Shown: positions 2,374 through 57,748 of the stretch, in pieces
How the letters are laid out: the number at the start of each line of letters is the position of its first letter
How positions within the stretch are numbered: the first letter of the stretch is position 1
NCBI RefSeq assembly: GCF_051622035.1
Contig: NC_135358.1
Span: 6,778,501-6,842,500, forward strand
Length of the DNA: 64,000 nt
Direction of reading: 5' to 3'
Origin: Arctopsyche grandis
Taxonomy: Eukaryota; Arthropoda; Insecta; Trichoptera; Hydropsychidae
Made by a program: the position numbers and the translations under genes
The notes under the pieces: model-generated
What the model saw: only the letters and a program-made list of their open reading frames with translations
What the model was told of the DNA's origin: nothing
Databases searched by the model: none

Positions 2374-3646
2374 CTGAAAGTTATCAAAAACGTTTCAATA
2401 TTTCAAATCTACAACAATCACAATCAAATTTTAAATTACCCTATCCGAACTTTGCCATCATTACTTATCACTTTAACACATAGTTTACGTTATTTTTCAA
2501 TCAATAATACTTATTACTCGAAATTACCATCACATTTTATCTTGACAATTTTAATTAACCTTTTTTCAACAAATCCACAGTCGATTATCGAGAATCAAGA
2601 ACAATGCATCACTATGATATTGAACAAACTAGACACAAAGCCGATAAGATTGTTATTAACGGTACGCATGTATACGTGTAATAATTCAACGAACGAGGTA
2701 ACATCAGACACACCTAAGTGTGAATACTTTTAAAATTAAAATTACATTAATAATTTATACAGTCGATAAGGCCATAACTTATCAGCCATTTAAATCCAAA
2801 AAAGAAAACATATGTATTTTACATAAATTTACGTTAATTCTGTATATTATAAATACACATTTCATCATTTTCAAGACGTTCAAACTTCAACGTGAATGCA
2901 AACGAATTTATAATTAGCATATATAATACATATGTATATGTAAGTTTGTTCCCTCAGCAAATAGGTACAGAATATAAAAATCATAAATGCATTTTCAATT
3001 GGTTTTGGCTAGTTTTATCGTGTCTGTACACGTCACAGATTGATTTCTTATCAAATTAATTAAACATGGAATAAGTTTCACGGCTATATTGTTAATATTG
3101 CAACACTTTATGCTGTGTGTTAATATTATATGAACTTATATTTATTTATTTAAATACATGGCAGCTAAGCCGATAGACTCACGGGGTTTAACTTATATAA
3201 ATAACAAAATAAAACCAAAGACATTCATAATAATAATAAGAAAGAAGAAAAAAAGTAAACATGAAAATAAAATATGAAAGAAAAATAAAAGAAACGGTAA
3301 CATAATAACTACACGAAAACAAAAGTATACAAAATATATTAGAAAGGAATAATTACAAAAATCCTCCAACCACTTCATCGCCATAAGCACACCGGTGCGC
3401 GCTCCTTCGTATTTAAGGCTATGACTCGAAATTAATTTTGGTTTCCTTACAGCGACATCTAAAAATATCCTGTGATACAATGAAATTGAAAAGAGGCAAT
3501 ATTTTTCGTTAGTTTGTGATAAATTCAAAAGGTAGTGTCAAGGGTTGGCACTAAACACATATAATAGAATAATCAAATCGGTTTCTACAAGCGCGTGGCG
3601 ATTAAGTGATTAAATTTAAGAAAGACAATGTACATATGTAATTTAA
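2374..3646. other. No gene recognised (AT-rich)
   Basis: This stretch holds no conserved frame, RNA gene or clear repeat. It may include upstream intron of the flippase gene, but no further exon was seen. Confidence 0.4.
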
Positions 3647-3817
3647 GACCCGGGCCACACCGTGCCACTTTGTCGGCCTAGTTGCGCAACCAGAAAATAT
3701 GTATGGACATGTGAGCGACAAAGGAGTTGATGGGTGTGGCATGCCCCAGCTAACTGCATACATTGGTCTGCTCACTCTCAACAAAGTCGCTCGCAAGTGG
3801 CACGGTGTGGCCCGGCT
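3647..3817. mobile_element. TTAA-flanked MITE (piggyBac-like)
   Basis: A 171-bp element has GC-rich inverted ends (CGGGCCACACCGTGCCACTT at both termini, in opposite orientation). It is flanked by TTAA at 3643-3646 and 3818-3821. TTAA duplications are diagnostic of piggyBac-type insertion. There is no coding capacity. Confidence 0.7.
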
Positions 3818-3926
3818 TTAAGAAAATTATATCTATGTACTTTTTTCAAAATACTATATAAAACTAATATATCAATTTCAAAAATCATCTAAACCAGTCA
3901 TATGTAGATACACCATTTAAATAAAA

Positions 3927-4179
3927 GGTGACCGGAAAAATGCCCTCGAGATAGTTGCACTCTCGAGACACCCAAACTTTCAAAGATGCTCAAGGAGAAC
4001 TAACGCAATATAATTCCACAAAAAAGCGTCAAGGGGTATTTATATGTTATCCGAGGGTGCTAACCTTTTTTTGTGGAATTCTATTGCGTAAGTTATTTTT
4101 GAGCGCCTTTGAAAATTATGACTTCTCGAAACTGCGCTACTTACTATTCAATGCAATTTAGTGCATCTTTCCGGGAACC
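3927..4179. mobile_element. Foldback MITE family B, copy 1
   Basis: The ends read GGTGACCGGAAAAATGC and the complement of GGTTCCCGGAAAGATGC. The flanks repeat AAATAAAAG (8-9 bp target duplication). Inside is a second palindrome built on ACGCAAT.TAATTCCACAAAAAA. A second copy in the same orientation is at 58655-58899. The 8-9 bp duplication suggests a Mutator-like or hAT mobiliser. Confidence 0.7.
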
Positions 4180-5220
4180 AAATAAAAGTATATGTATGTA
4201 TGTAAACTCAAGCACTCTTCTGATCAAAAATTTGACAAAATATTGGGTCACCCTCCAAATTGGCTGATTAATTGTTAAAATGACACGTTTTCACGGCTCT
4301 ATTCAGTAAATAGTGAGAAAAAGTGTATATACAGATATAAATCACTGCTAATAAATTGAATGAAAAGTTTCGCGATATGGAATAGAATGTCTAGCGGAGG
4401 AAAAACGCTCTCACCATTGTGAAAAAGTCTGCTGCACGTAGGTGAATGAAAACTATTCGTTATTGAAAGTATGTGGTATTGTTATCGATTCTGAAATTCG
4501 CGATAAGATGTCATGCTATTATATCATTGAGATAAAGCGATACCGTACATATTTTAACCATTGTATGTACTTCTCGACATCGAGCATCTTGCAGCCAAAT
4601 TCAATAAAGGCTAGATCAGACAGCAGTTTTCACAATTACAACATCACTCATTTCACCTGGTGCACAAGCAACGTCTATCCGGAAGTTGATGAAAAGTTTT
4701 AAAATTCGGAAGTACATAAAGTGCACTCGCGAAACCGAATTGTGAAGAATATGTGCATTTCAATATGAATACTTATTGTTGAGTCATTTCATAAATAGTC
4801 TCATTATTGCTTTATTATTTAAGTGATATACGGCACGGCACGCTCATTAATTTCAAACGTGAAAATTTATAACGTCTACACCCCCTAGTTATAGTTTGCC
4901 TTCATATCGTTTTCAAACGGCATATTGATGAAGTTTTCAATTTAATAACAACATAAATAAAATTATACATACACGTTTTCAGTTGTCAGTTGAGATGATA
5001 AGTTTTGCCAGTTTCATTGTATGAAACGTGTGGTTTTAAGTTCCATTCCAACCATTCGAGTCCAAATGTATTTAATTATTTTTGCAGGCTGTACATTTTT
5101 TCTGCAATTAACCGAATGCTTTATAACTAGTAACGTTTTCTTCTAAACGCATTTCTTTGAAAGACATATTTTCATATGCAAATTGTGAGCCAAGTTTCAA
5201 ACCAGTAATGTGTTTAGTAA
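4180..5220. other. No gene recognised
   Basis: AT-rich sequence with no supported gene. The 86-aa frame at 4442-4702 has no recognisable domain. GTTTAGTAA before 5221 provides the left TAA flank of the next element. Confidence 0.4.
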
Positions 5221-5316
5221 CACTGAGCAACAAAAGAGCGGAGACTAATGAATTGTTGGTTTGCTCTCGTTTATGAGATGCAGTGGCGTAGCTACCGCGC
5301 CCGCAGATCACGCAAT

Positions 5317-7149
5317 TGATTTGATTTTTAAATGCTTTTTATTATTACGAAATTATGTTCACAATACATCTTATATCTATTTTAATAGCTACTGATCTAC
5401 TGATCATTTTCTATTTTACAATTTTAATTTAATTTGGTTAGTAATCACTGTATTATATTATTCTAATGTTAATCTAAAGCATAATAGGAAAAAGAGCTCA
5501 AAAACCTATTTACAATCCTTATAAATGTTCATAATACATCTAATACATAATATTAATTAAAGACTATCTAAAGTCGATGACCTAAAGCAGATTGTGTTTA
5601 GGTAATCTGTGTTTATACCTGAAGGGTATAGACATTTTGTTGTAATCACCGAGACTCTTCACAAGTGTGTTAGTATGGTTATTAGTGATTCTTTCATAGA
5701 ATCTACTGGTTAGTTTGTTAGTAATGTCTGTAACAAACGGAATATTATATATAGCATGCAGTTTTTTCAGGTTAGTATATATGGGTGTATTATAAATTAT
5801 TTTAAGGGATTTATTTTGTATTACTTGGAGCTTGGAAAGGTTAGTATTCGAGGCGTTATTCCATACAGGTGAAGCATAGGTTAATAATGGTAATATGAGC
5901 GCGCGATATAATTTTATTTTATTTAGCGTTGATAAAGAACTATGGCGATTAAATATTGGATATATTGAGGATATACCCCGCATCGCCTTGCATTTCGCTG
6001 CCTCAATGTGAGGTGCCCATCTCATTCTTTTATCAAACGTTACTCCTAAATATTTTATTACTGACTGCCATTTCAGACTTTCTCCAGAGGGGATTTTCAG
6101 ATCTGAACTTGGCTTATGTTTTCTAACACTAAAGAATATGGCGTCTGTTTTGGTTTGATTAATTTGAATTTTCCACTTAGTGAAGTGTTCAGTCATTGTT
6201 TTAATTGCAAATTCAAGATTTTTAAGAATAGTGTCTGGTTTTTTGCTACTTGTGAAGCAAGCTGTATCATCTGCATATAGGGCTATGTGACAGTTTTTTG
6301 GAATAGGTATGTCATTTATATATATGGAGAACAAGAGTGGGCCAAGCAAGCTCCCCTGCGGAACGCCAGCTGCGATTATTTTTGGAGACGATAATTCATT
6401 ATTTACGCTAACCACTAGCTTTCTACGAGTTAAGTACGATTTGATGATGAGAATTAGGTAGTTTGGTATTTTGTTAATAAGGAGCTTATGAATGAGTCCA
6501 TCGTGCCAAACCGTGTCGAAGGCCTTTTCTATGTCGAGACATACCATTCCGGTACTTCTCTTCATATTAAAGTTCTTCGTCACGTGTTCAGTTAGTCTTG
6601 TAAGTTGTTGGGTCGTGGAATGTCCAGTGCGAAATCCAAATTGTTCATTTATTAATTTCTTATTTACGACTTTAAGTAAACGTGTGTAGATTATTTTTTC
6701 CAGAATTTTTGAAAGCGTGCAAAGTAAGCTAATGGGTCGATAATTGGCCGGGTTTTTTGAGCTTTTATCGGGCTTAAGTATGGGAATTACGTTGGCTGTT
6801 TTCCAGTATTCTGGGAAATACCCGGTGAGTAAACATGCGTTGAATATTTTAGATAGTGAGACTAAAGCTTTAAATGGAAGTTGTTTGATTGTGATGTTAT
6901 CTATTGAATCTCGCCCAGGTGCCTTTTTATTTTTTAAATTACGTATTATATTTTGGATTTCACACGGATGCACCAATTTTATATTTTTAGTACTGTTAGT
7001 GGGAGTTTTTGTGATGATTTTAATGGACCGGTTGACTTTATTATGCGTTGGTATGTGATTATAATGTTGTGTGAGTGTGTGATGTTTTTGGAAGGATTTT
7101 GATAATAGTTCTGCTTTGTCGCAATCACGCGTCACTGAGATTCCTGCAA
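5317..7149 (-). mobile_element. 5'-truncated Jockey-like non-LTR retrotransposon
   Basis: A 13-bp perfect target duplication, CAGATCACGCAAT, flanks the insertion (5304-5316 and 7150-7162). The reverse transcriptase reads on the minus strand. The 3' end lies at 5317 after an AT-rich 3' UTR of about 265 bp without a long poly(A). The endonuclease half of ORF2 and all of ORF1 are missing, a usual outcome of incomplete target-primed reverse transcription. The perfect duplication and open RT frame suggest a young insertion. Confidence 0.85.
5582..7135 (-). CDS. Reverse transcriptase ORF2 fragment (Jockey-like LINE)
   Basis: The open frame is 517 aa without a stop. It carries the RT fingers/palm motifs NYRPISLLCTLSKILEK, GFR.GHSTTQQL, the DIEKAFDTVWH block, AAGVPQGSLLGPLLFSIYIND, and the catalytic YADD at about residues 286-289. 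A thumb and C-terminal extension (KYLGVTFDKRMRWAPHI, LTYASPVWNNAS) follow, as in Jockey-clade elements. The upstream apurinic endonuclease domain is absent. The apparent N-terminus is therefore the truncation point, not a native start. Without endonuclease the copy is not autonomous. Confidence 0.85.
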   Translation of the reverse strand: MTRDCDKAELLSKSFQKHHTLTQHYNHIPTHNKVNRSIKIITKTPTNSTKNIKLVHPCEIQNIIRNLKNKKAPGRDSIDNITIKQLPFKALVSLSKIFNACLLTGYFPEYWKTANVIPILKPDKSSKNPANYRPISLLCTLSKILEKIIYTRLLKVVNKKLINEQFGFRTGHSTTQQLTRLTEHVTKNFNMKRSTGMVCLDIEKAFDTVWHDGLIHKLLINKIPNYLILIIKSYLTRRKLVVSVNNELSSPKIIAAGVPQGSLLGPLLFSIYINDIPIPKNCHIALYADDTACFTSSKKPDTILKNLEFAIKTMTEHFTKWKIQINQTKTDAIFFSVRKHKPSSDLKIPSGESLKWQSVIKYLGVTFDKRMRWAPHIEAAKCKAMRGISSIYPIFNRHSSLSTLNKIKLYRALILPLLTYASPVWNNASNTNLSKLQVIQNKSLKIIYNTPIYTNLKKLHAIYNIPFVTDITNKLTSRFYERITNNHTNTLVKSLGDYNKMSIPFRYKHRLPKHNLL

Positions 7150-8413
7150 CAGATCACGCAATGCGGGAGGGCGCCACAAAGCGGCGCGCCTTTTTCACTG
7201 ATTTTTTAATTTGTTCTGTTATTTCTTTGTAATAATTTTTTTTTTTTAAAAAAAAAAAAATCTCTTATTTTTCAATTTATTTGCATTTCGTTTTATTTTA
7301 TGTACATACATATAGCTAAGAATTCTATCTTATTCTTGTATATATTTTTTCAGTGTTAAAACAATTAAATAAATTTATGAGGCGTGAAAACCAATAAAAT
7401 TTGCAAATTTATAATTTTTTTGCTGTCAACATTAACAGGTGGAAGTTTTTAAGGAAAATTCACCATCAGTTACTTTAAACAAATTGTGCACTGCCTGTCG
7501 TCCAGATTAGATGTTTTAAAATCTTTTACAGAATTAATTTTAAAAAGTAAAAGAAAGGAAGGGGGGGCGCCTGACATTCACGCTACGCCACTGACGAGAT
7601 GAGAGTTTAATAATAAAATGCGCAGTTTTTCCATTTTTTTTTTTTTTTTGACTTTACAGTATTTAACTCAATATCTATTATTGCTAGTGAGTATTTGAAT
7701 CAATAGTCAGGTGTTTTGTTCATTGATTGTGATTTTTTATTGTTTTCAAATACCTATAATTAACTATCTATCGAATTTTAAATCAAAAATATATATTTTT
7801 ATCGAGCTATCATGCATTTATTGGACCAGTTATATATTTCACTACGTTTGCAATGGTTGATTTTCAATCCCAATATTTTTTTAAATTTCTATATGAAATT
7901 TTCACGCTCGTAAGTGAGCGCGAGCGAGTGAGATCGAATGATGCGCTATCCATTCTTCATCTCGCTCTTGCATCATGCATACGGACATCAACAACACCCT
8001 TTTTACTTTATTTAATATACCGCTTGAATTAGTTAGGTTAGATAGTAATAAAATATATTGAAATAAAAAAACCAATCCTTATAAACGTGGTGATTAGCGA
8101 AAAAAAAAAGTATTTATTTTTGGCTTTTAAAATTTGCTAGATAATTAATTATACGTATTTTAAAACAATTATAAATCACAATCAATAGACAAAACACCCG
8201 AATATTGATTACAACACTTATTTTTAATACAGCAATACTAGATTTTGAGTTAAAGACCGCAACAACCAAAAAACTGTTAAAATTGCGCATTTTTTTAAGC
8301 GCTCACATATCATAAACAAGAGCAAACCAACAAAAATCATTGTCATATTCTAATTCAGTGAATCAAACTTAGTAACGATTGATTAGTCTCCACTGTGGTA
8401 ACTCAAAAACGTG

Positions 8414-33074: not shown

Positions 33075-33665
33075 GTCATATGTGAACCGGTCACACGTCG
33101 TCACCCGTCACACTAAAACTGGTCACACCCAAAAATTGGTCACGGGATAACTGGTCCGATGCGGTGCAAACGATCGAAGAGCGCCAGACAGACTGAACCA
33201 CAGATTAACGACACGTGTACCTCATGCGTACGCACTGCTCGCACTTACACTAAGCTAAATCTACCCAAAGTTCCGACACCTACCCTGTATACGTTCTGTG
33301 CTTCTGATACTTTAGTTCCGAATTTTTCCTTATTAAATTATTAAAAACACGCCAGAAAGATCCAACTCAATTTTAATAATTACCATTTTAATAATTGCAT
33401 CTGTGCACATCGAAAGGTTACTCGTCATCTGATGTACAATTTTTCATTCGTGAAGTCGAGAATTGCGTTTAAAGCAGCCATCCAGTTAATCTGTGGTTCA
33501 ATCTGTCTGGCGCTTTTCGATCGTTTGCACCAAACCCAACTGGTCACACCCAAAAATTGTTCCACACCAATTTTTCATTTTTGGGTGTGACCAGTTTTCG
33601 CGTGACCAATTTTTGGGTGTGACCGGTTTTCTTGTGACCAATTTTCCTGTGCGACGAATTTTCGT
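33075..33665. mobile_element. Long-inverted-repeat element with reiterated GGTCACACCCAAAAA ends
   Basis: The left arm (about 33075-33210) and right arm (about 33470-33660) are inverted copies sharing GTGCAAACGATCGAA and GCGCCAGACAGA.TGAACCACAG. Outside this core both arms carry several repeats of TGGTCACACCCAAAAA. The design mirrors the Mutator-like element at 43.3-47.8 kb, which also has reiterated short motifs at its ends. The exact boundaries and target duplication were not found. It lies between Plc21C and Larp7. Confidence 0.55.
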
Positions 33666-33683
33666 GCGACAGAAGATTTACAT

Positions 33684-42144: not shown

Positions 42145-45100
42145 ATGAAACTAATTCAATCGTTTCAGAATAACAATGAAGTTGATACTAAAGGATATTT
42201 ATATCCCAATTGCGATTCTAGTGTGTGGCTAAGGTCATGCGAAGAAGAAATTATACAGCCTATGCAAGGTGTTCAAAAAGGTAAAATTGTGTTTATATTC
42301 ATGTTTAAAATTTTTAAAAACATTGCACCATGACAAATAAGTTCAAATCAATCAACCTGACATTTATAGTAATGCTTTTAATTTTAAAATGATGAAGAAT
42401 TATCTATTAAAAAATGGTCCAAATTACATATCTTTTAAGGAAGTACTTACGTAAATATATAGGTTATCAGATATTTACAATTTTACTTAAAACAAATTAA
42501 AGTTCATAGATGTGCCGACATTCTCAGATGGTTTTTTATTTTATCTATGTACGTAGTAACAATAGATGAAGTTTTATGATCATGAGAAAATTTTAACTCG
42601 AGATGTTGACTGATTCGAACTTGGAATCGATTACTGATCACGTTTTCATGATCTAGAAAAAAATGTGTGTGTGTGTCAGTGTATTTTGGGAATTTTTGAA
42701 CACTGTTCGTCCTATCGAACTAAAACTTAGTATCGGTTAATGAAATTCTTATCAATATAAATTTATCTTAAATATAATTAATAAATATATTTAATAAAAT
42801 ATTATCTTAAATTCTTATCAGTAAATGTTTTTCAAATTTTTAAGTTGACCGGAAATGGTACCTCCCCTTATATGTACATAGGTGTCCTCTATATTTAAGT
42901 TTTTGAATTCAATTATCTCCCAAACCGCTAATCGAATCAGACTGAAAAAAAATTAAGTGTAATAGAAATTATAAATTTTATACGCGAATATTTTTAAAAT
43001 ATTTTTTTCTAAGCCGGAAGTAGTACTTTAACTATAGGGAATCGATGTTTTTTTTTCTCAGAAACCTTTTGTTTTATTGAACTGAAATGTCATATTTAGA
43101 AGTTTAAGTTTAATACCAAGTTATATACAAAATTTGGTAAGCATCCGTCTAAGCATGTGTGCTCTTCGAAATAATTCAAGTATAATTTTTGTATCAATGT
43201 GATGAAAATAAGAAAAGAATCACTAAATTTGATAAACCGGAAGTGGGAATTTTTCCTCTTCGAAAAATGTCAAAAATGTTGTGACCACGATTCTTTCCTC
43301 GGTTACACGACAATTGGTGCAAGTCCAAAATGTTCAACGACAAAATGTACCCGAAAATTAGTGCACTGACAAAATGTACCCGCGACAAAATGTACCCGCG
43401 ACAAAATGTACCCGCGACAAAATGTTTAAGCGACAAAATGTTCAAAAATGTTCAAAATGTTCAACCGTATCCAATATTTTCTTATTTAAATTGAAAAAAA
43501 AAACTTTCTGAGCGTATGAACTGCAGATTACATTGCATTAGTTTATATGGCAGGGCTTCTCAACCGTCTCCAAAATTTTCTTTATTTCAAATGAATAATT
43601 TACTTTTTATCGTACACATCGCGGGCGTTATTAAATTAGTATAAATGACAGGGGTTCTCAACCGTATCCAATATTTACGTATTTAAATTGAAAAAAAAAA
43701 CTTTCCGAGCGTATGAACTCCAGATTACATTGCATTAGTTTATATGGCAGGGCTTCTCAACCGTCTCCAAAATTTACTTTATTTCAAATGAATAATTTAC
43801 TTTTTATCGTACACATCGCGGGCGTTATTAAATTAGTATAAATGTCAGGGGTTCTCAACCGTATCCAATATTTTCTTATTTAAATTGAAAAAAAAAACTT
43901 TCTGAGCGTATGAACTGCAGATTACATTGCATTAGTTTATATGGCAGGGCTTCTCAACCGTAATATAAAATCTTATAATGAAAATAAATAAATAAAAGCC
44001 AAAATTACAAATCTTTTCTTCATATGAAATAAGTTGTATTCAGTTGAAAACAAAACAAAAATCATTTAAACATAATATGAGCATACAAAATAGATAAAGA
44101 AAAAAGATCATTATTTGACATGTATTTTTAAAATCATTTTTAAATTTATTACTTAATTTTGTAATAATATTTATTTTAATAAATAAACAATATTCAATTA
44201 AAATAATACATCATTAATTGTAAGATTAAAAGTGATCTGCTCTCAAATAATGGAATCATCATAGTTCGAACTGTTGAAATGCACATGTCATTAAATTTAA
44301 AACATTAAAACACAAAATTTATCAATTTTCAGATTAAAACAATAATTGTTAAATTAAAAATTTAAAATACCTAACATCAGTGACATATTTAGTTATAATA
44401 TAATTGCTTATCAACAGCTACCGCTGCATAAAAAATATTGATGTCATTTAAAAAATTTGAGTATATTATGACTTAATTTATACATTCTTAAATAATAAGA
44501 AATAAATAAGCAAAACGTTGTGCATTTGATGGAATATCGATAATAAGAGGAAGCTTTTATAAAAAAAAGATACAAAAATGTACTAAAAGGAAATAAAAAT
44601 ATTGTATATAATATTAAAAAATCCATAATTAGTAAGATTAAAAAATGGTATGACAGTATTTAAATAATGTAGATATATACATACATATGTACATTAAAAG
44701 GAATTTAATATTTTTCATATTAAATAAGTTTAGTTTAGTTTTAAAATACAAGGATTTAAAATTAATAACTAAATATAATATACGTAAGTATGTGACTAGA
44801 TATATAAACTAGAACCCTGTTCGCCCTTGACTTGACTGCTGCGAGAAAAATATCCTGTGTACGCACCTGAAAATGAATGTTATATATTATTTTATATACA
44901 AAATTTTAACGAAATAATATTTTAGAATAAAAACTAACGTGTTTAAAAATTATACGATATTCCTCTTAGGTATGTCTCCAAACTTTGTCGATTAGCCCAA
45001 TTGGCTGTGACGTTTTTTATCCTCTCTGCCAATTGTACGTATTTCGGCCGCTGTTGTATTCCCATAACTCCGGAGTTTAGTTCTTCTACTAACTTCTCGG

Positions 45101-48100
45101 TCTCGGCTTGGAGACCTTGAAGGGCTTTCAAAAATTTCCAGAGGTTTGGAAATTGGGCTCCAATTGTATAGCCAACTTTCATATGGCAGCCTTCCACTTC
45201 GTTATCTGTTTTTCCATAATTATGTATTATTCGGTCTCGAACATTCCATATGTCAGTATTGTTAACTTGATAACCTTATTAGAACTTTATAATACCAGAG
45301 AAATTATAAATTTATTACATAGATATATGTATATTTTTCTATAATAAATGTGATCGAGCTTATCAACTGTGAATAGCTAAAAATTATTATTCTAATGCTA
45401 CAAACCGAAGTTGAAGAGGACATTGAAGAGATTTTGAACCCACCATTTGCCTATTGTCCTAGGGTTTTACGCAAAGAAAAAAATGCATTCAATAGCCTCT
45501 AACATGAGGGTAGTAAAATTTTATAACCCATTTGTCTTTTTACATATTTTCGTCCATTTGTGTAGACAATTCATCTGTCAATCATAGAACTAATTTCAAA
45601 ATATATTATTGTTTTGCCATCTCTATTCAACGCGCGTGATTTTTTTTACATTTACATTTTAATTGCATTTTACATCAATCGTGTGTCTTTTACATGTCAA
45701 AATGAAATTTTGTATGCAACTCTTACGCATAATAGTTAGTTGTAAATGATGCAATATTAATGTGAAACATAAAGGAGGTATGTAAAAATAATTTTAGCTG
45801 GGGATTAAGGAACCCGTTGCCCAAAAAAAAAAGGTTGACTATTGTAAATTTCTAATGTCTGCCTTTTTTACATACCTCCTTTTTTCTCCAATACAATGTC
45901 CGATTCATACATTTGTTTTTTGTTAAACACTAAGTAAAATCTCTCCATCATAAATCCTAATAGTCGTAATTCGAGACTTGATTGTAAAATAATACATTAA
46001 ATTTATCTAAATTAATATTTGATATTCTTGCCATATAATTGTATAATGAAATATTAAGTTTAAAAAAAACTTTCATTTTACATATAGCTTGCGAATGTAC
46101 ACTAGAAGACTTATTTGCAGAAGAAATAAAATAATTGCATTTTTAAACAAAATTTTGGAAAAAAATTATGTGAATTTGATTTAGAGACGCCGTAAAGGTC
46201 ACATTCAATGTTAAAACTCGAAGTACACGTGACCGCTGGCTGGGAACTGTTTTATCAAAATAAAACGTGGCGATCAACGTTTATTTATTTATATATTATC
46301 TTAGCTATCAAGCTAATTTTAAAATTACTTAACTCTAAAATTTATAATTATCTTATATGTACTGTCCCTCACAGAGGTCTTCGGTGTTAAACTAATTCAA
46401 TGACATACGCTTAAAAACTAAATTATTCATTTGAAATAAAGAAAATTTTGGAGACGGTTGAGAACCCCTGTCATTTATACTAATTTAATAACGCCCGCGA
46501 TGTGTACGATAAAAAGTAAATTATTCATTTGAAATAAAGAAAATTTTGGAGACGGTTGAGAAGCCCTGCCATATAAACTAATGCAATGTAATCTGCAGTT
46601 CATACGCTCGGAAAGTTTTTTTTTTCAATTTAAATACGTAAATATTGGATACGGTTGAGAGCCCCTGTCATTTATACTAATTTAATAACGCCCGCGATGT
46701 GTACGATAAAAAGTAAATTATTCATTTGAAATAAAGTAAATTTTGGAGACGGTTGAGAAGCCCTGCCATATAAACTAATGCAATGTAATCTGGAGTGCAT
46801 ACGCTCGGAAAGTTTTTTTTTTCAATTTAAATACGTAAATATTGGATACGGTTGAGAACCCCTGTCATTTATACTAATTTAATAACGCCCGCGATGTGTA
46901 CGATAAAAAGTAAATTATTCATTTGAAATAAAGTAAATTTTGAGAACGGTTGAGAAGCCCTGCCATATAAACTAATGCAATGTAATCTGCAGTTCATACG
47001 CTCGGAAAGTTTTTTTTTTCAATTTAAATACGTAAATATTGGATACGGTTGAGAACCCCTGTCATTTATACTAATTTAATAACGCCCGCGATGTGTACGA
47101 TAAAAAGTAAATTATTCATTTGAAATAAAGAAAATTTTGGAGACGGTTGAGAAGCCCTGCCATATAAACTAATGCAATGTAATCTGCGGTTCATACGCTC
47201 GGAAAGTTTTTTTTTTCAATTTAAATACGTAAATATTGGATACGGTTGAGAACCCCTGTCATTTATACTAATTTAATAACGCCCGCGATGTGTACGATAA
47301 AAAGTAAATTATTCATTTGAAATAAAGTAAATTTTGGAGACGGTTGAGAAGCCCTGCCATATAAACTAATGCAATGTAATCTGCAGTTCATACGCTCGGA
47401 AAGTTTTTTTTTTCAATTTAAATACGTAAATATTGGATACGGTTGAGAACCCCTGACATTTATACTAATTCAATGACATCTTAAAATGATATTCAATGAG
47501 TCACAATGACATTAGCTTAAAATGTAATTGTTCAATTTAAATAAGTATATGTTGGTACGGTTGAGAACACCTTTAATTTATAATAATTTAATAACATCCG
47601 CGATCTATACGATAAAAAGTACCATATACATCGATAAATATAATACAATAAAAAGTTACTTTTGCCATTAAAATAGGATAATTTAGGATTTTTGAACATT
47701 TTGAACATTTTTGAACATTTTGTCGCGGGTACATTTTGTCGCGGGTACATTTTGTCGCGGGTACATTTTGTCAGTGCACTAATTTTCGGGTACATTTTGT
47801 CGTTGAACATTTTGGCCTTGCACCAATTGTCGCGTCCCCTTCTTTCCTCACCCCTGAACGTATCAAGCTGAAAATATATGTACTTAGAGCTGATAAGGTT
47901 TTGGCCAAAATTCTTTAGCCGGAAGTAGTATTTATTTTTTTTAAACAATATTTCATTATTTTATTTTGACCTTTTAAATTATTTTAATCTTCTTGATATT
48001 TATTGTGTATAATTTATACTGATAGTGATTTTAAGTAAAAAAAAAAATGGAACAAAATCTGACAACCGGAAGTAGAACTTTTGTCTTGTGTAAGTTTCCC

Positions 48101-55369: not shown

Positions 55370-57748
55370 TCACCAGTTGGGCTTAGTTTGATTAATAGAC
55401 CATTGCTGATAGGTATTGTTAGGATCGCACACTAACAAAGACAACAGTTTCGTATTGGGATGAAGCGCCAAGCATTTATTATACACTCTGTGCGAGATCA
55501 TTTTAGTCTCCGACGAATACACCCACGGTCCGTCTACCGTACCCAACCTGCAGAAGGCAATTTTAATTCCTTGAGAATCTGCTTCGACGCACCGCTCACC
55601 GACACCTAACTGTCCAGCACTGTTCAAACGGAACAGTTGATTATTTCCCATACCATGACAGAGACCTGTGCCGAGATAAGCAGGAGCTGCCCTTCCCATC
55701 GTATCCAAGCAAGTGTTCCCGGCGACGGATCTAACCGTACCCCAATGCTCATTCGGTGGCAACTTTGGAAATTTATCATAAACATCGTAAGCCACGTTAT
55801 CCATGAACCACGAAAAACTTTTACAATTCAGTCTATTTTTAAGCTCAATCTGTTCTGATATATCGCCCATATCCAAAAATCGAGCCATAGGCTCTCGGGT
55901 ATAAAAGAACTCTTTGTGCTCTTCGTCGAACCAAGTTTCAATGACTCTCTTGTAGTTGATTGTGATCAGAGGTCCTTTTTTCTTATTAGCCAATTTGCCA
56001 AAGCTGTACGGCATAAATCCTCGATATACGTGACCGACGCGTGAACAAGGAACCCACTCTATGCTGCCACCGCATTGCCATATTTTAAAACTCAATTCGA
56101 AATTCTCACCACCCCAGACTAGTAAGCCTGGATCATACGCGCCAATGTCAAGGAAAAACTGACGATTTATCGCGAAAAGTCCTCCGGCATGTGTAGGACT
56201 TTTGTAAGGTTCGGAATTGTGCGCTCTGCGGCGAGCTTCCTTATCGGGAAGTTCGTTCTCTTTGTACAACATTCCCCATTCGAATATACCCCGATAATGA
56301 TGGCCGTTAGTGTAGACGGGTCTGTACTCGAAATTCTTGTGGTCGATTCCGTCGATGACGGGAACGGTCATAACAGTCGGATCACGGTGGATGGGAGCTA
56401 ATAAAGGAGGCAGCCAATTAGCGTTGACTTCGCAATGAGCGTCCAAATAAACGATGACATCCCCCCTGGCTTCTTTGGCACCCCGAGATCTTGTACGAAT
56501 TAAACCTTCTCGTTCGGAATTACGAATGAGACGAACTTTCCCATCGAACCGTTCAATGTCCTTCTCCAATTTACTGCCAAGGTCTTCTTTATCCGAAAAA
56601 TCATCCACCTGAAATAACAATACAAAAGATTACAGGTTGACTCAAGTATTAGAATGTTTTCAAGAGTTTGGCAATGGTCTGTGACTCACCAGAAGTACTT
56701 CGTAAAGCATTTCAGGCGGTGAACGGTTAATAACGGAATGCACTGTTCTCATCAAGACTGACCAGCCCTCGTTATGAAACACTATGATGACAGACGTCGT
56801 CGGAAGTCCCTTCGGATAGTCCCAATGCTTACACTCTTCCAGTCTAGTATCAGGTATGGATCTATCGAGGGAAATTTCATCTGAACAAGCCAAATTCATT
56901 CCGTACTGAGATTCAGACTCGGCAATATCGTTTGCTTGATTGTCCCTCATAATGTGTGCCTTTCCCTCTTCACCGGGACCTTCTCTCTTTTCTATATGCT
57001 GTTGCTCGAAGTTTCCAAGACCTATAACGAATAATAAATATTAGAATACATCCCGATTTTAAATTAACACATTACCTAATGGAACAATAATAATTCGATA
57101 CGTTTGCAAAATTAATATATAATATATTTAAGAGCCGTAGTACGTGTGTTTATCTTTTTTCATGTAAATTAAAACCAGGAAAATATTGCATACATGTAAA
57201 TAGTTTTAGATAGTTTCATAATACACCAGATTATATTCGATTTAAATTGGTGATTTCGTCATATGGATCATCCTGGTTTAAATGGTTTAAAAATATATGG
57301 TTGATAAGCTATGAACCTGATAAGAAAAAACGTGCATCTCGTATTATATTCTCAATGGATTATTACTATCAAAGAATTCATTTACCATTCAAAAACATAA
57401 TTAATTTAATAAGTCATTACACGACGCTTAGAAATATGATGTGTGGTTTAGAAGTTGTGTTTCAAATTGCAGGACAATGCGAGTCCTGAATGGTAACTTT
57501 CATGGACATTCTGAGTGGATTGGCAATGCTATATATAGGCCAAGTATGTGGAACAAAAGTTGAAGTGAACCTGAGACGAGAATAGGAATTTCGCTATGGT
57601 GTCGTAGAGAGTGCTGCGCGTCGGGACTCGGTAGATTGACCGCTCTGTCTCCATCTCCATGTCTCCTCTGCAGCAGCAGAATCACCAGGCCAGTGAGCAC
57701 CAGCGCCACAATCAGTCGGCCGCGTCCCCAACGCATCCAAACACGCAT
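55370..57748 (-). CDS. pgant7: Polypeptide GalNAc-transferase, GALNT7/pgant7 type (3 exons, 582 aa)
   Basis: This Golgi enzyme adds or extends mucin-type O-GalNAc on glycopeptides. Exons: 57748-57571, 57021-56690, 56608-55370 (1,749 nt, in phase). Layout: a short basic cytosolic tail, one signal-anchor helix (about residues 12-26, LIVALVLTGLVILLL), a stem, then GT-A catalytic domain with SVIIVFHNEGWS, the metal-binding DAHCE (about 226), AGGLFAI and the WGGENFELSFKIWQCGG block, and a C-terminal ricin-type lectin domain with repeated QLFRL/QQW-like motifs. The LGNFE stem motif, EECKHWDY, and CHGMGNNQLF are closest to GALNT7 among family members I recall. GALNT7-type enzymes prefer already glycosylated substrates. 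Start: the first ATG before the anchor. It is divergent from HGH1, 1.5 kb away. Confidence 0.93.

Follow-up and report, generated by a model that had tools for sequence, protein, structure and literature searches.

We analysed a stretch of 64,000 nucleotides, hereafter the window, from the genome of Arctopsyche grandis (Trichoptera, Hydropsychidae; RefSeq assembly GCF_051622035.1, contig NC_135358.1, positions 6,778,501 to 6,842,500 of the forward strand). It contains a complete transposable element of 4,539 bp. Very probably this is a Phantom-type Mutator (MULE) transposon that was active recently and has compound, Foldback-like ends, here represented by a non-autonomous copy with an internal deletion. 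Its parts, in window coordinates, are listed below; TSD stands for target-site duplication and TIR for terminal inverted repeat. C numbers denote genome sequences and L numbers individual copies of the family.

43301-47839: complete element, 4,539 bp, bounded by 10-bp TSDs.
43291-43300: left TSD, TTCTTTCCTC, same sequence as 47840-47849.
47840-47849: right TSD, TTCTTTCCTC, same sequence as 43291-43300.
43301-43307, plus strand: left 7-bp tip GGTTACA, with no inverted counterpart at the right tip.
47833-47839, minus strand: right 7-bp tip GGGGACG (read inward), unmatched by the left tip in inverted form.
43305-43429, plus strand: left outer TIR, 125 nt, 98% complementary to 47711-47835.
43308-43323: CGACAATTGGTGCAAG within the left outer TIR, reappearing inverted at 47817-47832.
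47711-47835, minus strand: right outer TIR, containing CTTGCACCAATTGTCG at 47817-47832.
43368-43415, plus strand: left tandem 16-bp motifs GACAAAATGTACCCGC, three exact, with a one-mismatch copy at 43339-43354.
47725-47772, minus strand: right tandem 16-bp motifs, three exact, with a one-mismatch copy at 47786-47801.
43461-43961, minus strand: left 197-bp array, 2.5 A/B dimers, from tandem-repeat and inverted-repeat comparison.
46412-47474, plus strand: right 197-bp array, about 5 A/B dimers (46443-47474 measured as 5.2 units).
47475-47631, plus strand: outermost diverged array unit or units, with a 118-bp spacing, from repeat comparison.
43962-46411: core, matching positions 1-1294 and 3528-4684 of the core of the intact relative L035.
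44946-45275, minus strand: C-terminal remnant of a transposase, a 110-amino-acid (aa) open frame whose residues 4-110 are 95% identical to seven uninterrupted frames.

From the outside in, each end consists of a 7-bp tip, the inverted CGACAATTGGTGCAAG, a tandem run of GACAAAATGTACCCGC and an A/B array. The 16-mer has eight matches in the window (up to two mismatches), against a mean of 0.04 in shuffled sequence. The 197-bp unit is made of alternating half-units, A of 98 bp and B of 99 bp, which are most alike over approximately their first 36 bp (9-11 of every 12 positions identical), less so in mid-unit (4-7 of 12) and again more in the last third (8-9 of 12). The left array (501 nt) is opposite in orientation to the right one and 97-98% complementary to stretches of it; the 118-bp spacing ends 18 of the 19 right arrays read. 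Each half-unit bears CAGGGSTTCTCAACC or a one-mismatch form, and all 16 matches to it in the window (up to one mismatch) lie within the arrays, at 43551-43959 and 46456-47455. We take CAGGGSTTCTCAACC to resemble the ends of hAT-type transposons, in which case the 197-bp unit may be of foreign origin. A Tetris-like derivation, in which the outer end gave rise to the unit, was considered and rejected, the local score being no better than that of shuffles.

The element belongs to a large family. With its left 200 bp as query we obtained 40 full-length matches of 98-100% identity (40 candidates scored, of 774 found), and the first 20 of these were fetched as loci of 10 kb. A second end is present in 19 of the 20 copies, and perfect TSDs flank 17 of them: 9 bp in 13 copies, 10 bp in two and 8 bp in two. 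Three further copies, read singly, have 9-bp TSDs (GATATTTCC, CTGAAAAAC and GTTTTTAAC). The 10 bp of the window copy are therefore inside the range of the family, for which 9 bp is the norm; the 10-bp duplications of the original prediction, an annotation made from the letters of the window alone, hold for this copy and not as a family rule. The tip GGTTACA is exact in 20 of 20 fetched copies, which were picked by left-end similarity, and three 16-bp motifs (up to one mismatch each) occur in all 20 left ends, the query itself having contained the motifs. Arrays are present on the left in 20 of 20 copies, partly by choice of query, and on the right in 19. With the 16-mers and 40 bp of array in the query, the fetched copies favour young ones with intact left ends, and their left sides do not bear on the linkage of ends to arrays.

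That linkage was judged with an exact 31-base end pattern, which contains neither 16-mers nor array sequence. It has 86 + 90 = 176 matches in the genome (reversed control, 0). Among the first 100 ends listed, 84 form head-to-head pairs within 15 kb, that is, 42 elements of about 1.4-11.6 kb; 31 of these pairs combine a G-type with a T-type end, as in the window copy, and 11 have two T-type ends. The pairs with two T-type ends sit on C2, C3, C5, C6 and C7, and perhaps represent a subfamily that arose when a left end was copied over a right one. On C1, exact B half-units lie within the neighbouring kilobases of 10 of the 12 exact ends. Ends and arrays thus occur together without any selection for arrays. 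An exact 36-base piece of half-unit B, for its part, has 854 matches in the genome (control, 0).

Relative to L035, the window core lacks 2,233 bp internally, with the junction at 45254/45255. A six-frame search returned 106 matches, seven of which lie in uninterrupted frames of 487-494 aa, 95% identical over the tail. The Pfam domain test, run on one of the seven, the 494-aa frame of L034, found FLYWCH (PF04500, E 7.8e-10) at residues 13-73 and MULE (PF10551, E 1.9e-14, above the curated cut-off) at residues 200-299. In the PDB, the 494-aa frame matches FLYWCH-type protein 1 (2rpr, E 0.00028); no Pfam match to a PHD finger was found in it up to E 1. The window remnant was predicted to be a FLYWCH/MULE tail: it is indeed the C-terminus of such a transposase, recognised through the tails of its uninterrupted relatives, and it holds neither domain. 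The window copy is, as judged by its sequence, a non-autonomous internal-deletion derivative that keeps only the C-terminal tail of the transposase. Full-length copies with an intact transposase were recovered in L034 and L035, whose 494-aa frames show no differences in 1,482 bases and which each have a perfect TSD. Such identity points to recent activity; present activity is not thereby demonstrated. No relatives of the transposase were confirmed in viral contigs.

Two groups of cores account for 19 of the 20 fetched copies. Group I (9 of 20) has the transposase-type core or deletions of it, and group II (10 of 20) a second core; along part of this core the likeness to group I is about 90%, and its longest frame with a transposase tail measures 149 aa. 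The core of L036 resembles neither group, apart from a simple-repeat stretch. Other copies carry internal deletions different from that of the window copy. In the group II copy L041, about 1.6 kb of the core (element positions approximately 4051-5675) matches itself at 2-bp shifts on both strands, and is probably a very long TA run.

The class assignment follows from these features. A PF10551 domain in the intact relative (absent from the window copy itself), perfect TSDs of 8-10 bp in 17 of 20 copies, where 8-11 bp is usual for the superfamily, a TIR of 125 nt at 98% and the 42 head-to-head pairs among the first 100 listed ends place the family in the Mutator (MULE) superfamily. An N-terminal FLYWCH followed by MULE is the arrangement of Phantom, and long inverted ends in which the number of tandem repeats varies are of Foldback type; the PHD finger that characterises Rehavkus is missing. 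TSD-flanked copies with intact FLYWCH and MULE frames of 494 aa thus point to a Phantom-type Mutator element with Foldback-like ends. Its transposase would bind the outer part of the ends, and the element would move by cut and paste. In its main lines the original prediction is borne out: a Mutator-like element with inverted repeat-array ends at 43301-47839, supported by TSDs, TIRs, family copies and a FLYWCH and MULE frame; three 16-bp motifs per side; and oppositely oriented 197-bp arrays of about 2.5 and 5 units. Neither observation that would have overturned it, arrays never found with these ends or other copies devoid of TSDs, was made: the genome has 176 exact ends and 854 exact half-units, arrays accompany ends, and TSDs recur.

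The arrays differ widely between copies. In the fetched set we count 5-16 half-unit anchors on the left and 3-30 on the right (L036 excluded), the window copy having 5 and 12. Its sister at C2:29116692-29126178 carries the same deletion, with three core mismatches in 2,450 aligned positions, plus gaps, and has about 13 and 21 dimers versus 2.5 and 5. The left array of the sister comprises 27 half-units, among which the four-unit block A1-B8-A6-B2 occurs four times, the pattern expected from duplicating several units at once; its right array measures about 4.1 kb, both edges having been read and the middle taken from contiguous unit matches. The same deletion, near-identical cores and very different arrays indicate a turnover of the arrays that far outpaces mutation of the core. 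Copies L025 and L028 show no mismatch in 1,982 core bases and have equal array counts, so transposition can copy arrays faithfully. Among the exact B units listed, the longest run of successive ones is 23, in the TSD-flanked element C1:6001750-6013310, and arrays reach at most about 7.5 kb (a C1 copy, with an interruption).

Expansion by unequal exchange had been proposed from the window alone. Array numbers that differ at the same deletion and the repeated multi-unit block speak for it, and we regard unequal exchange as the likely mechanism; it need not be the only one. Slippage and gap repair between units might likewise make arrays longer or shorter, and the change may take place during transposition or in copies at rest.

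Since the two outer ends are distinguishable, the orientation of the core can be scored. Combining 54 left ends with 56 of the 106 tail matches gave 35 ends with a tail within 9 kb, and in 10 of these 35 copies the core is inverted relative to the ends: 1 of 14 in group I (13 forward) and 9 of 21 in group II (12 forward). Inversion is visible by alignment in L037, L039, L041 and L042. It is also seen by alignment in L014, a group I copy with an uninterrupted 494-aa frame, its end types being taken from the 31-base pattern. As both core groups include inverted copies, there were probably two or more inversion events. In the tree, the forward copy L043 stands among inverted copies of group II, in a clade with a support of 100. 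Unit variants A5 and B7, named after long T runs had been set to one length, adjoin the same core edge in the right array of L043 and in the left arrays of L039 and L042; the left array of L041 has A5 alone, and neither variant appears in any other array read. For the most part, this placement would fit crossing-over within inverted arrays. Crossing-over between the inverted arrays of a copy would flip the core and leave the outer ends in place. Beyond recombination in Galileo we recognised no published core flips in Foldback-type elements, which is no proof of their absence from print.

Several observations weigh against a Phantom element whose arrays turn over rapidly and flip its core. In Pfam, the window remnant has only weak matches (E 0.034 and 0.2, below cut-offs), and the assignment to Phantom was made from domain order. 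Uniformity on the left side is partly by construction, since the left 16-mers and 40 bp of the left array were already part of the 200-bp query. Three of the 20 fetched copies are without a perfect TSD, one of the three having no right end in its 10 kb; on C1, the exact ends at C1:6349037 and C1:25837438 (2 of 12) have no exact half-unit nearby. The similarity between the outer end and the 197-bp unit is not significant, its local score being equalled by 164 of 300 shuffles in two-base blocks. Homogenisation within arrays is weak: the mean distance of A units is 1.75% within one array, 1.24-2.63% between copies of one group and 2.21% between the left and right arrays of one copy, and that of B units 1.70%, 1.99-2.68% and 2.86%, respectively (9 of 329 units, of unclear type, left out). 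Support inside the group II clade is 25-36, and a tree so poorly resolved would not fix the number of flips there. Finally, the inverted copy L037 has neither A5 nor B7.

Much of this architecture has precedents. Long ends with internal tandem repeats that vary in number are known from the Drosophila Foldback element FB-NOF, likened here by description and not by sequence. The comparisons that follow draw on the accessible parts of the published descriptions. Tm1 of root-knot nematodes is a Mutator/Foldback element with a FLYWCH-MULE protein of 496 aa (domains at 5-66 and 197-294), 9-bp TSDs, an inverted repeat beyond which lie 7-bp tips that are asymmetric, and tandem motifs of about 14 bp varying in number (PMC3169594). 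Tm1 resembles the present family in its domain places (13-73 and 200-299 here), 9-bp TSDs, asymmetric tips and short motifs, and in that most of its copies are without transposase; it differs in that its motif has another sequence and that a satellite-length array is not mentioned in the accessible text (PMC3169594). Tetris of Drosophila virilis is likewise of Foldback type, with 220-bp units in its inverted ends and 8-10 bp TSDs, and the expansion of its arrays was ascribed to unequal crossing-over among other mechanisms (PMC4079207). Unlike here, no transposase-coding copy of Tetris is reported as found, and the Tetris unit has 37 bp in common with the outer end and builds long satellite arrays (PMC4079207), of which we saw none on C1. 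Muta1-14 of Aedes aegypti share subterminal tandem repeats of 9-15 bp (in 10 of 12 families with long TIRs), 8-9 bp TSDs and many non-autonomous derivatives, and Muta1 is active in yeast; the part of the account available describes neither a satellite-length array nor a core flip (PMC5225508). Galileo has long ends with internal tandem repeats varying in number between copies, and its chimeric copies were ascribed to recombination (PMC3573991, PMC3688188). A 2019 survey tabulates aphid Phantom elements with a minisatellite after the transposase frame (PMC6446971), and the main text of a 2026 survey of arthropod MULEs, as far as accessible, is without the words tandem, foldback and FLYWCH (PMC13359780).

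It was thus too strong to state, as the original prediction did, that no described family has such a plan: Tm1, Rehavkus-1_TC, Tetris and Muta share much of it. Phantom elements with Foldback-like ends are already known, as are satellite-length units in inverted ends. What is new with respect to these descriptions, in their accessible parts, is the union of short-motif and satellite-length arrays in one FLYWCH-MULE family, together with intact frames, higher-order blocks and core inversions.

The 197-bp arrays themselves are most likely a by-product driven by recombination, possibly tolerated or helped as providers of putative secondary binding sites. Such sites have been tested by band shift in the end repeats of Galileo, in a paper that calls Foldback and Phantom untested in this respect (PMC3688188). 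A stronger version, rather unlikely in our view, holds that the arrays have a function, in transposase binding or as enhancers, and that selection on transposition maintains them. It would account for a left array in 20 of 20 fetched copies (in part a matter of query choice) and a right one in 19, and for the likeness of the half-units in approximately their first 36 bp. Against it, the number of half-unit anchors in the right arrays varies from 3 to 30 without settling on any value, and outer end and unit share no similarity. As for the 16-mers, which the original prediction put forward as putative transposase-binding sites, the left end of the sister C2:29116692-29126178 has none, keeping about 37 bp of the outer end, and its TSD is perfect; either one end can do without the motifs, or the sister lost them once inserted. 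This copy would argue mildly against a strict need for them.

Another possibility, which we consider improbable, is that the arrays are a host satellite captured by the transposon and not expanded within it. The size of the unit and its A/B higher-order structure do resemble a satellite, the unit is dissimilar to the outer end, and CAGGGSTTCTCAACC, if indeed hAT-like, allows a foreign origin. Free arrays could also account for an excess of units: 854 units at 7.45 per fetched locus make about 115 copies, some 30% above the approximately 88 implied by exact ends. This excess may come from mutated ends and long arrays; it could also come from free arrays in unlisted or unassembled DNA. The distribution of the unit goes against capture. 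The first 100 of the 854 exact places listed cover C1 completely and reach C2 at 7.1 Mb. On C1 no free satellite array, of the kind that the original prediction suggested the element might seed, was seen: of 75 exact half-units, 71 fall within seven inverted-pair loci, four of which have both exact ends and the other three a single recorded end. Of the remaining four half-units, two are some 3 kb away from a transposase remnant and two stand alone. A search for array stretches (40 candidates scored, of 404; about half of 311 matches listed) places 27 of the 35 stretches listed on C1-C7 inside exact end pairs. Outside such pairs, C2:29117088 and C2:7097924 were shown by fetching to be elements; C1:34078382, C3:35852621 and C2:30946204 are near one known end; C3:36013027 adjoins an uninterrupted transposase frame; and C4:2154674 and C4:2157131 form an inverted pair without exact ends. 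This pair and further arrays at C9:12532504 and C162:122559 may each be free or belong to an element. The cluster at C2:7097924, without exact ends and examined as a candidate free satellite, was ruled out: it is an element of 1.9 kb with a 9-bp TSD.

Repeats, whether tandem or inverted, are well known to cause mis-assembly, and array lengths and core orientations were read here from the assembly, not from raw reads; that both are artefacts is nonetheless very improbable, as arrays do not exceed about 7.5 kb, matching TSDs flank the copies, both core groups include inverted cores, and some unit variants track a core edge, unlike a random mis-join. Least probable of all is that the element is a Rehavkus, whose inverted termini have described satellite arrays (in Rehavkus-1_TC of Tribolium a 164-bp unit, in arrays mostly of five and eight; PMC10218199) and whose TSDs are given as 9 bp (PMC6446971): Rehavkus is listed with a PHD finger in the accessible part of the latter source, whereas the protein here has FLYWCH and MULE and no PHD match up to E 1.

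Elsewhere in the window, a tandem region at 33540-33670 has short motifs, in units of 15-32 bp around GTGTGACCAGTTTTC that are partly inverted; it looks like the terminus of another, similarly built element. A 419-aa open frame on the minus strand at 55370-56629 presumably encodes a polypeptide N-acetylgalactosaminyltransferase-like protein. A reverse-transcriptase-like frame lies at 5582-7153, and the window starts (1-190) with a GC-rich tandem repeat of about 39/80 bp with GGGGCTGCGCCCC motifs.

Returning to the Phantom element and its arrays, we propose, as a possible reading that is more doubtful than probable, that it acts as a satellite nursery: a still mobile transposon that bears, lengthens and shuffles higher-order arrays faster than its cores mutate, and in which inverted arrays repeatedly flip the core, including a transposase-coding one, without loss of the copy. 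If this were true, the birth of a satellite would become traceable on insertions marked by TSDs. The start and growth of satellites are usually inferred long afterwards; here they can be scored copy by copy, since near-identical, TSD-marked insertions carry one unit in varying numbers and orders, at least one of them already of higher order. A FLYWCH-MULE family with such two-level repetitive ends would also be a clean system in which to ask whether terminal arrays help a transposon or are a by-product of it.

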